Source: Pseudoalteromonas piscicida (lineage in GTDB: Bacteria > Pseudomonadota > Gammaproteobacteria > Enterobacterales > Alteromonadaceae). From it: DNA of 64,000 bases. Made by a program: the position numbers and the translations under genes. Shown one piece after another: positions 49,064 through 53,411 of this stretch (position 1 is its first letter; every line of letters starts with the position of its first letter). The notes beneath the pieces are model-generated. The model was not told the DNA's origin. It made no database searches and saw only the letters and a program-made list of their open reading frames with translations. Location: NCBI RefSeq assembly GCF_000238315.3, contig NZ_CP011925.1:310001-374000 (forward strand). The letters are read 5' to 3'.

Positions 49064-49939
49064 TCAGCAGGGTGCTGGTTCATTTTGAATTATAAACAGC
49101 CCCCTATTAATCGCGCTTGGCAGCCAAACTGCTAACTGCGCTCTCAATACTTGAGTCTCCATATTCATGCACTTAACACAGTAGGTTATTGCTTCTTGAT
49201 AGCGCAGCGGTTTTTCTCTCAAGTGCAGTAATAAATTCGCTTGCCAGTCATTTAATACATTCATTTTGATGCGATATTGTTGGCGCGATATTGCAATATG
49301 CGTTTGCTCAGGCGTTGGCAAGGTGCACGGTTTTGCTTGCTCAAGCTGGGTTATAAGAGAAAGCAAAGGGTAATCGGTTTGAATAAGTTGTACGGATTCT
49401 GGCACCGATATGACAAAGTCTTCGGCAATGCCGCAAAGGAGTTCAATCTCGTTTATTAGCGCTGTTGATTGCTCGGTTTCCGGTCCTGGTTTTAACAGTG
49501 CAAGGGCTTTGGCTCTTTCAAACTTAGCCAGCTCTGAAGGCAAGCTAAACATAGCTTGCTGGTGGGCATTAAAATCACCGGTAGGTTTAGTATGTGCTAA
49601 AAAATCAGCGAAGCGTGAGCCTAGTTGATGTAGTGTCCAAGACTCTGAGGGTAAGGTGACAATAAAGGCTTTGGCGAAGGTGTCGAATACTTCGTCGCCC
49701 ATAAACTGGCAAAGTAGAGCAAACTCCCCCCGAAGACATTCTACTAAACGCATCACATAGCCCGCAGCATAGATGTCTACTCTTCTCATGGCTCCCAGTG
49801 TTTTGTTACTTTTTACACAGTCATGCAGCGTTAAACCATGCGGATTTGCAGCGGTATTGAGCTTTTGTGGTAGGTCGCCTCGTACCATTAAAACGGTGCT
49901 AAACCACTGCTGAGTTTGCGTTAAGTCTGGCGTTTTCAT
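49064..49939 (-). CDS. DUF2063 protein, partner of the DUF692 enzyme (BufC-like)
   Basis: 291 aa. The N-terminal DUF2063 region holds the family pattern RVDIYAAGYVMRLVECLRGEFALLCQFMGDEVFDTFAKAFIVTLPSESWTLHQLGSRFADFL (broken here as RVDIYAAGYVMRL, then LPSESWTLHQLGSRFADFL). In characterised RiPP systems this protein binds precursor peptide and helps the MNIO. The start ATG overlaps the DUF692 stop by one base (TAATG), so the two are coupled. The C-terminal part, about 150 aa, is less conserved. Confidence 0.9.
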   Translation of the reverse strand: MKTPDLTQTQQWFSTVLMVRGDLPQKLNTAANPHGLTLHDCVKSNKTLGAMRRVDIYAAGYVMRLVECLRGEFALLCQFMGDEVFDTFAKAFIVTLPSESWTLHQLGSRFADFLAHTKPTGDFNAHQQAMFSLPSELAKFERAKALALLKPGPETEQSTALINEIELLCGIAEDFVISVPESVQLIQTDYPLLSLITQLEQAKPCTLPTPEQTHIAISRQQYRIKMNVLNDWQANLLLHLREKPLRYQEAITYCVKCMNMETQVLRAQLAVWLPSAINRGLFIIQNEPAPC

Positions 49940-50889
49940 TATGTTAATTCTGCTCGCTCTTTGACGATTGGAGTTGACAGTGCGTTGGTGTTAGTAACTG
50001 TATCTTGCTTTGGAATATGCCCTGTCAGGACCAGTTTTGCTTTGCTTAACTCATCAACGAGCTCTGGAAAGTTGGGGATATTGGCATCCCATTCTAGTAG
50101 GGTAGACACGCCACCCGTTAAGTGCTGCGCCAGTTGGTAAAGCTGCCAAACCTTGGCGGGCACCGGCTGGTCATGAGTGTCTATCAAACAATCACCGCAG
50201 TCACTAGGACCGGCAAGATGGATTTGAACGATGTGCTCATGGGGGAGTTGACGAATAAACGCTTCTGCGTCAAAACCATGATTAAAGCTACTAACAAAAA
50301 CATTGTTTACATCCAACAGCATACCGCAGCCTGTTGCGGTGACTAACTCACTAAAGAACTCGCTTTCGGTGAGAGTTGAATGTTGAAATTCAAGATATGT
50401 TGATGGGTTCTCAAGCACTAAAGGCCGTTCTAAAAAATCCTGAACTTGGTCAACACGGTTGATAACGTGTTGTAGGCTTTCGTCAGTCAATGGCATAGGT
50501 AGGAGATCGTGACTATTCAAACCAGCAATGCCTGTCCAACACAAATGATCGGAAATAAGCTGTGGCTTAACGAATTCACTTAACTCCTTAAGCTTGCTTA
50601 AGTATTCAAAGTTAAGCGGGTCGCTGCTACCAATATTCATTGACACACCATGCATCACTAGCGGGTATTGTTCCTTTAACTGAGCGAGGACATGCCGGCC
50701 ATAGCCGTGATTATCTATATAGTTTTCACTGATGATTTCAAACCAGTCGACGCTAAGAGATGTACCGCGCTCTAAATGGGACATAATAAAGGGATAGTGC
50801 TGGCTTCTCAGGCCAACACCAAACCCCAAGTCGGTTAGTTTTTCGATAGCGGACGCAGCAAGCTGCTGCGTCCGAATTGGATTTGTCAT
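49939..50889 (-). CDS. DUF692 multinuclear non-heme iron oxidase (MNIO)
   Basis: 316 aa, complete for the family. Conserved metal-site motifs, all intact: WFEIISEN (49-56), H80 in VMHGVSMNIGS, SDHLCW (113-118), LENPSTY (159-165), D193 in LLDVNNVFVS, H224 in QIHLAG, D237-T-H239, and E266 in LLEWDANIP. Members (MbnB, TglH, BufB, ChrH) use two or three irons and oxygen to convert cysteine residues of RiPP precursors. It is 13 bases after the ferritin-like gene. Cytoplasmic. Confidence 0.95.
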   Translation of the reverse strand: MTNPIRTQQLAASAIEKLTDLGFGVGLRSQHYPFIMSHLERGTSLSVDWFEIISENYIDNHGYGRHVLAQLKEQYPLVMHGVSMNIGSSDPLNFEYLSKLKELSEFVKPQLISDHLCWTGIAGLNSHDLLPMPLTDESLQHVINRVDQVQDFLERPLVLENPSTYLEFQHSTLTESEFFSELVTATGCGMLLDVNNVFVSSFNHGFDAEAFIRQLPHEHIVQIHLAGPSDCGDCLIDTHDQPVPAKVWQLYQLAQHLTGGVSTLLEWDANIPNFPELVDELSKAKLVLTGHIPKQDTVTNTNALSTPIVKERAELT

Positions 50890-50902
50890 GCTATCTTTCC
50901 TA

Positions 50903-53221
50903 TCAAGTTGATGGAGGAAGAGCTAGACGAATATCTGAAGGTTTTGGCTTCTCTTTAGGTTTGCCTTCTTCGTTCAATAAACCATTGGCATTGCAGTATG
51001 CTTGCCAAGCAATATCGTATACGGCATCCCCTTGTTTATATGGCATTAGCACATGATCTGTAGATTGATCGGTTGGAGCTTGTTGGCCTTTCGGATAAGT
51101 GTAATCAATAGCAGAGAAGCTGTTATCTTTTAGGTTAAACTTAAATAGCTGCATATCGTATTCTTGGTCTTCACCGGAAAGTTTTGGGAAGAGTTGAGAG
51201 GCTGAGATAGGCACAGCACACCCACCCAAGTTATTACACTTATTATCAGCAGGGGCACTTTTTGGCCCTGTTGATACGCTACCACCACAGCTACCGCCGG
51301 GCGTTGTACTATGAACAAAACCACAGCCGCCCTGTGCTTTACAGTCGTTACTACCCTTACAACTGTGATAGACCTCAGGAGGTGGTAAGTCATCCGCCCC
51401 AATGTTGGTGTAACTCATCCCTTGGCAGGCGTGGTAAAGGGTGTTCGGATTTTGTGGGGCGATACCCGTTACTAAATCTGGCGCAATTCCCGTGGTTGCC
51501 CAGCAAATCGAGATCCTATCGCCAGAGCCACCCATTGCGGGGCCCGGAAATTCACTGGTTTTACCCGACCAATAACGATCAAGTGCTGAAGTTAGACCTT
51601 TAATTGTGCCTACCGCAGATTGACTAAATAGCTTGTTTGTTTCCTGCGTTTTTTTATCTGTTTCCCTAAGATTATTGAGTGCGCGCACTACGCTATCCAC
51701 TGGTGGAAGTTGTGGGTGACGTCCGTGTGCTTCATCACCGCCGTTGGGATCCAATAATGCCTCAGTCCAACTATTACCCTCAGCAAACCAAGTTGGCCAA
51801 GTCAGGTAGCGTTCTTTATGAGCCATTGTTGGTTTTTCATAACTAACAATGAGCTTCATCGTATCGGTGAAAATTTGAAAGTGGTCTTTATATTTGTTGG
51901 CTATTCGGGCACAGGCGGAACCGGATAACGGTTTGCCATCTGTGCTTGGATAGTCATGCTCTAAGGCAGGTTCATCTGGTTGAAAACGTGCATCTACAGT
52001 GCTCGGGTGAGCAGGCTTAGCCGTACTTTGTAATTTACCCAAGACACTTTGGGCCCAAGGCTCTTCTGCCCAGCGTAAACATATCATCTTTGCAACGCCG
52101 TCGCCTTCACCTTGATCTGTGATTGCATTGACATTATTCATGAGTGCTTCTTTTAACAAATTATGTTCATTATTTGTATCAAGAGAGCCCTTTATTTCAG
52201 GGAATTGGGCTTGATATGAAGCATCACCAGGACGTTCATTAAAGTAGTTTCTCTGTGCTCTAGCGTCGTTTGCTTCAGCCTTTGAGAGCGCATAGTCTAG
52301 TAGACTCGTGTTATCATCGTATTCAATTTGAATATAGTCCCAATAACTCAAGTACATATGCCCAATTGAGCCGAATAGTGGCAAATCACTTTCTGTGTAA
52401 TCCGGTTTCCACCAGTCGTATGGGGCTTGTTCAAAATATTTTGGCTGTTTTGTTTTTGCGTCTGGCTCTAAAAACTGCGGCTGAATAATTTTTTTGGCGT
52501 TTTCTTCAGTCTCTTCTATTAGCATAAAGAGTAAAGTCTGTTCTTTATTTAGCTCTGTCGCATTAACGCGCAGGTCTTGTAATGTTTTACCAGGAAAAAT
52601 TTGTTCGAAATAAGCCTGAACTTCTGGGCTTAGCTTAGATAAGTCTGTAGTACAGTCTGCAAAGTCCAAAATATGTGGAATACCGCTTTGGTTGTTGTAG
52701 CACTTCCAACCAAATTTATCGTCAATTAACGCCTGACTGGTAAAGCTCGGTGTGAGCCCTATTTTACTCGCCATGTTAGAAGCGAGTTGTAGATGCAGCA
52801 TCTCTTCAATAAATACACTATAAACGCCGTTAAAAACCTGTTCATTGACATTAAGTTCAGAGTCACTAAAACCAATAAACCTGTCTTTTAAGTCGTAGTC
52901 GTAAGGAGACAATCGTTCTGAAGGAATGTATCCTGCAGTCGGACCAAGCCCTGGCCAGTAACGGCCGGGATAGAGGTTTGATGAGTCTGCAATCTGGTGT
53001 GTGCCCTGAATCGAGTAGAGGCCGGTCATATAAAGTGGGATTGTGAATAACTCCACGTTAATTGCAGCTTGTGCAATTGCTTTCAGGCAAGATAAATCAG
53101 CAGCCTTATACTCGCTACTGCGTGCTTTAATTTGTTGTTTTTGTGTACTGCTTAAGAGGATGTTGGCATCAATTTCTTTATCTACTTCTACCGATGGGCC
53201 TGTCTTGTTCTGTACATTCAT
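50903..53221 (-). CDS. Ferritin-like (VioB/RebD-type) protein with bufferin-like Cys-rich block
   Basis: Start at 53221 (AAGGAG seven bases upstream), 772 aa; no signal peptide is seen. Residues about 40-310 resemble the ferritin-like iminophenyl-pyruvate dimer synthase domain: ELFTIPLYMTGLYS (E57), FIEEMLHLQLASNM (E140, H143) and LLFMLIEETEENAKKI. A middle region of unknown fold follows, then seven Cys in residues 599-668: HAC599, HSC621-KGSNDC627-KAQGGC633, SC645, NKC662-NNLGGC668. CKGxNxCKxxGGC blocks recur in DUF692 substrates, as I recall. DUF692 and DUF2063 genes follow at once, so it is a likely substrate. Confidence 0.8.
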   Translation of the reverse strand: MNVQNKTGPSVEVDKEIDANILLSSTQKQQIKARSSEYKAADLSCLKAIAQAAINVELFTIPLYMTGLYSIQGTHQIADSSNLYPGRYWPGLGPTAGYIPSERLSPYDYDLKDRFIGFSDSELNVNEQVFNGVYSVFIEEMLHLQLASNMASKIGLTPSFTSQALIDDKFGWKCYNNQSGIPHILDFADCTTDLSKLSPEVQAYFEQIFPGKTLQDLRVNATELNKEQTLLFMLIEETEENAKKIIQPQFLEPDAKTKQPKYFEQAPYDWWKPDYTESDLPLFGSIGHMYLSYWDYIQIEYDDNTSLLDYALSKAEANDARAQRNYFNERPGDASYQAQFPEIKGSLDTNNEHNLLKEALMNNVNAITDQGEGDGVAKMICLRWAEEPWAQSVLGKLQSTAKPAHPSTVDARFQPDEPALEHDYPSTDGKPLSGSACARIANKYKDHFQIFTDTMKLIVSYEKPTMAHKERYLTWPTWFAEGNSWTEALLDPNGGDEAHGRHPQLPPVDSVVRALNNLRETDKKTQETNKLFSQSAVGTIKGLTSALDRYWSGKTSEFPGPAMGGSGDRISICWATTGIAPDLVTGIAPQNPNTLYHACQGMSYTNIGADDLPPPEVYHSCKGSNDCKAQGGCGFVHSTTPGGSCGGSVSTGPKSAPADNKCNNLGGCAVPISASQLFPKLSGEDQEYDMQLFKFNLKDNSFSAIDYTYPKGQQAPTDQSTDHVLMPYKQGDAVYDIAWQAYCNANGLLNEEGKPKEKPKPSDIRLALPPST

Positions 53222-53411
53222 GGTTTGCTCCTTTGTGACGGTATATGGTGTAAGATGTAAGATATAGTTTGCTGACGACAAAAGGTACATAGACCCAAGG
53301 CCGTAAAATAAAAAGTAGCTGTAAATTGTTGATAAGGCGATTACATCAAATTACAGAGAAGGGGAAGCCAAATATGAGCGACAAATGAAGAGTTTGCCGC
53401 TCAACTTGCAC

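Follow-up and report, generated by a model that had tools for sequence, protein, structure and literature searches.

The window, by which we mean the whole analysed stretch of 64,000 nucleotides of Pseudoalteromonas piscicida DNA (NZ_CP011925.1, positions 310,001 to 374,000), lies on contig 2 of the two contigs of this genome and carries a trio of adjacent genes on its minus strand. They encode a protein of 772 amino acids (aa) that we call FER, an MNIO of the DUF692 family and a DUF2063 protein. Its sequence shows that FER joins a PF12902 ferritin-like domain to a Cys domain at the C-terminus, the latter related to the precursors of bufferin-type ribosomally synthesized and post-translationally modified peptides (RiPPs). 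Taken together, the three genes are best read as a self-contained cassette that follows the A-B-C order of bufferins. The features of the locus are these:

50903-53221, minus strand: FER, 772 aa, ferritin-like domain and C-terminal Cys domain, putative MNIO substrate
52097-53071, minus strand: PF12902 ferritin-like domain of FER, residues ~51-375 (Pfam)
51218-51427, minus strand: Cys block of FER, C599 to C668 (alignment, profile comparison)
51314-51367, minus strand: motif 1, residues 619-636, HSCKGSNDCKAQGGCGFV; at least 98% identity at 12 of its 18 positions (121 proteins)
51182-51259, minus strand: motif 2, residues 655-680, SAPADNKCNNLGGCAVPISASQLFPK; at least 98% identity at 16 of its 26 positions (121 proteins)
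50906-50917, minus strand: C-terminal PPST of FER (alignment of homologues)
49939-50889, minus strand: MNIO (DUF692/PF05114), BufB type, 316 aa, motif LLEWDA
49064-49939, minus strand: DUF2063 partner protein, PME-type 1, 291 aa (PF09836)

The FER gene and its neighbours

Read from its first start codon, the FER open reading frame spans 50903-53290 on the minus strand (795 aa); the ATG at 53221, which has AGGAG directly 5' of it, yields the 772-aa protein. Thirteen bases separate FER from the MNIO gene, whose stop codon overlaps the DUF2063 start in the sequence TAATG. The reading frame coordinates confirm these junctions, which a first-pass annotation had described for three tightly spaced minus-strand genes. 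Its account of the products was also correct. The ferritin domain it saw in the 772-aa protein matches PF12902 at 62.4 bits (gathering cut-off 22.3), and the complete DUF692 enzyme and DUF2063 partner match PF05114 at 346 bits (cut-off 25) and PF09836 at 57 bits (cut-off 27.2), the latter giving the PME-type 1 signature. The Cys-rich block is likewise present and comprises C599, C621, C627, C633, C645, C662 and C668, plus C573 upstream. The MNIO scores 344.9 bits with the NCBIfam BufB model (NF050167), above the curated cut-off of 310; the DUF2063 partner stays below the cut-off of the HvfC equivalog (NF050145), at 37.8 against 142 bits.

A protein search with FER returned 575 relatives at E ≤ 0.001, and the best 120 of these were aligned with FER (n = 121). 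Hosts named among the 120 include Pseudoalteromonas, Shewanella, Photobacterium, Marinomonas and Pseudovibrio and, outside Pseudomonadota, Aureivirga, Mucilaginibacter, Chitinophagaceae, Acanthopleuribacter and an Acidobacteria metagenome-assembled genome. Nine Cys are invariant in all 121 proteins: C174 and eight in the tail (C573, C599, C621, C627, C633, C645, C662 and C668). The share of positions that are at least 98% identical is 67% in residues 619-636 and 62% in residues 655-680, against 6% in the spacer between these motifs and 5% in residues 681-758; the PPST at the exact C-terminal end is again common to all 121.

The ferritin-like region, taken in two halves, reaches 23% and 13%. 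Within this domain, 120-121 of the 121 homologues have E57, E140, H143, E236 and E372, and the E140xxH143 pattern with the conserved carboxylates is compatible with a di-iron site. A PDB sequence search with FER gave 3hl1 as its sole match. The first-pass annotation had called the domain VioB/RebD-like. What stands of this is a shared Pfam domain, PF12902, which occurs in VioB and RebD, together with UniRef names starting 'Iminophenyl-pyruva...' on some relatives. No signal peptide is evident in FER: two of the 121 N-termini pass a threshold of hydropathy above 1.9 over 12 residues within the first 40, a crude check that does not equal a signal-peptide program. By this test FER lacks the Sec signal peptide that characterizes bufferin and captophorin precursors, and the protein is predicted to be cytoplasmic.

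FER occurs beside an MNIO gene

Genomes were searched with the FER profile alone (369 of the class, 398 of the phylum and 108 of the genus, as well as 60 and 11 of two families, the samples overlapping). In Pseudoalteromonas, 32 of 108 genomes gave a match: 22, including this one, have a full-length FER, two (G786 and G816) have remnants, and eight have only a short PF12902 protein. Two of the 22 also encode a short protein, which brings the short PF12902 proteins in the genus to ten. Full-length FER was found elsewhere in the phylum in G128, G141, G606, G860 and G882. Together with a variant in G450 and two phage-like IMG/VR contigs (L044 and L045), these genomes provide 30 distinct loci; three further loci (L004-L006) are copies of others in the set and were excluded from the count.

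At all 30 loci, FER is followed downstream by an MNIO gene in the same orientation, so that FER takes the place of the gene that precedes MNIO and DUF2063. The two genes overlap or are at most 72 bases apart in 28 loci, with gaps of 268 bases in L046 and 377 in L045 (gene starts being mechanical), and a DUF2063 gene of 256-307 aa follows the MNIO in 28. By comparison, none of 12 PF12902 proteins without a Cys block (the ten of the genus plus those of G240 and G388; 333-431 aa, 3-5 Cys) has an MNIO gene in the fetched flanks, which cover ~4-8 kb per side and 0.8 kb on one side of L088. Beyond the trio, no gene family of at least 80 aa occurs in more than eight of the 30 loci, and neighbours are common only within groups of related strains. 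We reject chance or a selection artefact as the source of the linkage, because FER loci were collected first, by FER profile or protein alone, and the MNIO was sought afterwards. The trio recurs in other genomes. Block-bearing homologues that never stand near DUF692 had been named in advance as evidence against a connection; what we found is an MNIO adjoining FER in 30 of 30 loci, which leaves the claim unrefuted.

FER-linked MNIOs form one lineage

A maximum likelihood tree was built from 64 MNIOs, 30 FER-linked and 34 others, mostly from Pseudoalteromonas. The 30 FER-linked enzymes, including those of G450 and the phage-like pair, fall on one side of a single branch (support 100/98). The nearest outsider, on a long branch, is a Buf2-type MNIO-DUF2063 fusion of G921. 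At the loci examined, FER was accordingly found only together with one MNIO lineage, and among the MNIOs fetched, a part of those found, none of this class occurs without FER.

The residue after the presumed catalytic Asp also separates most of these enzymes. It is Ala, Ser or Gly in 30 of 30 FER-linked MNIOs (EWD[ASG]), Phe in 13 of 13 linked to EGKCG precursors (ERDF) and Asp in 19 of 20 linked to Buf2, the exception being L104 with EWDS. L114 has ERDG and L136 has ERDA. For FonB, Asp249 has been proposed as the base, and Phe250 is reported to influence selectivity (PMC12668002). Going by the motif, these two residues may correspond to the positions compared here.

The Cys tail belongs with a stand-alone family

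A search with the Cys block alone chiefly returned FER fragments and small proteins such as P0235 and P0238, about half of the matches having been inspected individually. Starting from proteins of the P0235/P0238 type, a large family of small Cys-rich proteins emerged, with 5449 of 8000 scored candidates at E ≤ 0.01. We built a profile, A4, from 30 proteins of this stand-alone family and kept FER out of it. A4 retrieves the FER of this genome at E 7e-7 as well as further FER proteins. In profile comparison (hhalign) the FER tail matches A4 at 99% (E 2.6e-18) over 106 columns that include the stretch after the block, and A4 matches Buf2 precursors at 96% (E 3.9e-9); the EGKCG control gave no match. 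The homology of the Cys-rich core to bufferins runs through this chain, and it is through A4 that the 'bufferin-like' label given to the block in the first-pass annotation is borne out, the direct match to Buf2 being weak. We also considered whether the block is merely low-complexity sequence, a possibility rejected by its invariance, by the profile match to the stand-alone family and by the negative EGKCG control.

Applied to the genome samples, A4 picks up five small Buf2-like precursors besides FER proteins and the G450 fusion. Of these precursors, four (G921, G197, G133 and G198) have an MNIO directly downstream, with a second, Buf1-like frame in between in G133, and the fifth, G999, has no MNIO in the fetched stretch. 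The G450 gene (L087:6806-9034, minus strand) encodes a 742-aa PF12902 protein (142.8 bits) fused to a Cys tail of the stand-alone type that ends in CGSSGMSGAGGCS. An MNIO and a DUF2063 gene follow it, and the MNIO sits with the FER-linked branch. In viral contigs A4 finds only the L044 and L045 loci. Plasmid searches with the A4-type proteins P0317, P0320, P0297 and P0251 gave no match, and one with P0247 gave two Pseudoalteromonas replicons only, both inside an already found FER gene.

The BufA2 model (NF050166) gives 126 bits for L001, the other precursor of this genome (cut-off 60), and 55.6 bits, slightly below the cut-off, for P0238; A4 members match it weakly (P0291, 24.7 bits, E 2e-5). 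A sequence of the A4 family (among P0235-P0358) reads ELHACMGLNACKG...RGQGGCG...GSCAVPIN. Four A4 members and relatives that were scanned reach no Pfam cut-off. The family may overlap with the adjamnio families of PMC12452194.

The ferritin-like part is less constant than the tail

Compared with the locus of G780 (L051), DNA identity is 93-99% over the FER tail, the MNIO and DUF2063. It drops to 66-81% at ~51600-53000, which covers the linker and the ferritin-like domain, and is back at 94% where the gene starts. A comparable drop is seen with L057, along with a diverged upstream flank, and no drop with L060 and L062. Against L051 and L057 together, identity is 66-83% at 51600-53000 and 90-99% in the FER tail, the MNIO and most of DUF2063. 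At the protein level, residues 558-680 are 97-99% identical to those of L051, L057 and L052, and residues 381-557 are 64-66% identical. Since the tail, MNIO and DUF2063 DNA is 93-99% identical where the ferritin-like DNA is 66-81%, we take tail and MNIO to travel together; an exchange of the ferritin-like part, with the tail kept beside its MNIO, seems to have taken place. Exchange between close strains can be read as a looser role for the ferritin-like domain.

Proposed function and alternatives

Gene position, homology and the MNIO lineage make it highly likely that FER is the substrate of its MNIO. The first-pass proposal that a large protein fills this role is thus well supported by comparative genomics: FER occupies the bufA position and has a bufferin-related tail, all 30 loci have an MNIO behind it, and none of the 12 block-less relatives has one in the fetched flanks. 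The further first-pass proposal, in which the ferritin domain would function together with the modified Cys region, is plausible. The explanation that we favour as a whole, at a probability of roughly 60%, is that FER is an intracellular BufA-type substrate whose modified tail serves, next to the ferritin-like domain, as a metal site or cofactor.

MNIO-DUF2063 pairs turn Cys into 5-thiooxazole, which lowers the mass by 4 Da, and the modified products bind copper (PMC12668002, PMC12452194). In FER, the DUF2063 protein would dock the substrate and the MNIO would oxidise some of the core Cys (599, 621, 627, 633, 662 and 668), most likely to 5-thiooxazoles at -4 Da per Cys; we regard a thiooxazole as the probable product. 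FER would then remain in the cytoplasm as a finished metalloprotein. Its matured tail would be either a protein-derived cofactor or a metal site with a fixed geometry, copper(I) being the likeliest metal, and would work with the ferritin-like domain, probably a di-iron one, in the handling of metals or oxidants. Two features, the lack of an evident export signal and the near-complete conservation of the motif flanks, lead us to prefer such a site or cofactor to a released peptide or a simple metal sponge. That the tail is such a functional site in cis with the ferritin-like domain is a tentative proposal, to which we give a little less than even odds; we lowered our estimate slightly because the L067 FER is without one core Cys. 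A more specific version, in which a thiooxazole-type metal site is the protein-derived catalytic cofactor of a cytoplasmic ferritin-like enzyme, spread as a three-gene cassette that some phages also carry, is speculative and would on balance be unlikely.

Several observations weigh against the favoured explanation. The absent signal peptide is unexpected in that DUF2063-type partners are reported to accompany precursors exported by Sec (PMC12452194). The kinship of the tail to bufferins is indirect: the direct hhalign comparison of FER with Buf2 gives 57% over 17 columns, and the BufA2 model yields no hit to FER at E up to 10, nor any to the FER Cys segment alone. The C-x5-C-x5-C core after His-x, present in 29 of 30 loci, is broken in the L067 (G128) FER by a His in place of C627, and C573 is missing from FER of L067, L068 (G141), L044 and L045. 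The latter two are also without C645, and retain C599, C621, C627, C633, C662 and C668. The tail site is therefore not wholly fixed. The PPST end is found in 25 of 30 loci, the others having IPPN (L067), LIPN (L068), GGCS (L087) and PPAT (L044 and L045); with these variants, a strictly invariant tail had to be rejected beyond the 121 proteins of the alignment. The phage-like loci have a DUF2063 piece of only ~50 aa, and in L045 a 143-aa frame separates FER from the MNIO. EWD[ASG] occurs in one of the 34 MNIOs not linked to FER (L104), so the motif is characteristic of the FER-linked enzymes and we rejected it as an exclusive signature. Finally, the linkage was traced in Pseudomonadota and two phage-like contigs, and homologues are also named from Bacteroidota and Acidobacteria.

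Three other explanations deserve weighing. FER could be an intracellular buffer for copper or another soft metal and nothing more, with a bufferin-like tail on a ferritin-like domain that is a mere scaffold or oligomeriser. The relation of the tail to BufA2-type precursors would suit this, as would the copper binding of bufferins and their relatives (PMC12452194, PMC12668002) and the constancy of the tail between close strains whose ferritin-like parts differ or are swapped. A near-constant Cys set with near-invariant flanks suggests a fixed-geometry site rather than a sponge, however, and the conserved carboxylates and His of the ferritin-like domain also speak against a mere scaffold. We consider a pure buffer unlikely, although it is the alternative that we take most seriously.

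Alternatively, FER might act together with the MNIO on another precursor, as a VioB/RebD-like tailoring enzyme whose Cys block is an ordinary Zn or Fe-S site. The occurrence of PF12902 in VioB and RebD and the UniRef names of some relatives would fit, and a 128-aa frame with 5-6 Cys does lie upstream of FER in six closely related loci. Yet small Cys-rich frames near the trio (at least 25 aa, within 1.5 kb) do not recur across lineages, no other family of at least 80 aa is found in more than eight of 30 loci, FER itself sits in the precursor position with a tail that belongs with MNIO precursors, and block-less PF12902 proteins have no MNIO nearby; a tailoring enzyme is accordingly improbable. 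We give slightly less weight still to the idea that the ferritin-like domain is an oversized leader, from which an MNIO-modified tail peptide is cut out and exported as a metallophore. Known MNIO products are mostly peptides, and the tail is related to RiPP precursors. Against such a peptide, no recurrent family of at least 80 aa accompanies the trio in more than eight of 30 loci, and therefore a peptidase or exporter dedicated to it is not a fixed neighbour, the functions of the neighbours being unannotated. About 100 residues follow the block and end in the conserved PPST (121 of 121 best homologues, 25 of 30 loci), and E57, E140, H143, E236 and E372 are kept as expected for a working domain.

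Relation to known systems

The closest counterparts are the bufferins or captophorins of the BufA2 (Cys-Lys) type with BufB and BufC. The trio shares their A-B-C order, its MNIO exceeds the BufB cut-off, and its partner protein, in the place of BufC, matches PF09836. The FER tail is related to BufA2 through the intermediate family, FER itself being unmatched by the BufA2 model. Unlike BufA2 precursors, FER is 772 aa long, has no evident signal peptide and is fused to a ferritin-like domain, and its MNIOs stand on a branch of their own with EWD[ASG] in 30 of 30, whereas Asp is found in 19 of 20 Buf2-linked enzymes. The stand-alone A4 family, without signal peptides, has the same Cys domain as FER, including the VW..AR stretch that follows, but no ferritin-like fusion. 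Short PF12902 proteins share the ferritin-like region of FER with its DQGEG motif; they differ in length (317 aa in 3hl1, or 333-431 aa), in having 3-5 Cys and in the absence of a nearby MNIO at 12 of 12 loci.

The first-pass annotation had held that the precursor is normally a short peptide, which is partly right: PMC12452194 describes precursors as long as 835 residues, as well as fusions of bufferins with cytochrome c/FGE-sulfatase and MerC. In the fusions (Buf1-cytochrome c-FGE sulfatase, MerC-Buf1, MerC-Buf2 and Buf_EGKCG-EF-hand), a bufferin-type domain is joined to a larger domain as in FER, although the partner in FER is another one, the ferritin-like domain. MerC fusions are reported to be membrane proteins with a periplasmic bufferin domain (PMC12452194), unlike the predicted cytoplasmic FER. 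Large fusions are given there as 'a few instances', compared with 575 proteins in the FER search. The covered parts of the main text of that survey (PMC12452194) do not mention ferritin, and a literature search at the level of abstracts found no MNIO or DUF692 system with a ferritin-like, PF12902 or VioB partner. Bufferin fusions as such are known already; the main texts that were searched contain no ferritin-like case.

Modification of FER, if it occurs, would mean that MNIO chemistry acts on a large protein inside the cell instead of a peptide destined for export, and that it could build metal sites or cofactors into enzymes. With no evident signal peptide, FER also departs from the correlation of DUF2063-type partners with Sec signal peptides reported in PMC12452194. 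Should the cofactor reading be true, RiPP chemistry would be used for enzyme maturation rather than to make a peptide metallophore. The FER family offers a test case, with a near-constant Cys core, one partner MNIO lineage, natural variants lacking single Cys and, as controls, block-less relatives of the ferritin-like domain.

Phage-like contigs, remnants and other MNIO loci

FER lies at L044:7827-9824 and L045:7935-9779 in the two phage-like IMG/VR contigs. In L044, FER and the MNIO stand between genes for terminase, portal, head protease and major head protein and a DNA helicase gene; in L045 they come after a DNA methyltransferase gene and before a helicase similar to that of L044. The FER of this genome had no match among 50,697 phage records.

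Two Pseudoalteromonas genomes carry remnants. In G786 (L070:8129-8506) the start of FER runs in frame into the end of the MNIO, with the DUF2063 gene behind, and in G816 (L085) all three genes of the trio are fragmentary. From these remnants, the trio genes seem to be lost together.

MNIOs of other types occur in Pseudoalteromonas genomes without FER (L135, L136 and L137), and no small Cys-rich frame of at least 40 aa with at least 5 Cys was found on the same strand within 3.5 kb of them. At L097:9499-11205, an MNIO-DUF2063 fusion of 568 aa lies behind an 87-aa Buf2-like precursor. The genome that carries the trio has two further MNIO loci. The second of these (L002; G000:C1:576702-577484) has an MNIO gene with an internal TAA, the LRRE/ERDF residues of EGKCG-linked enzymes and a long repetitive frame upstream.

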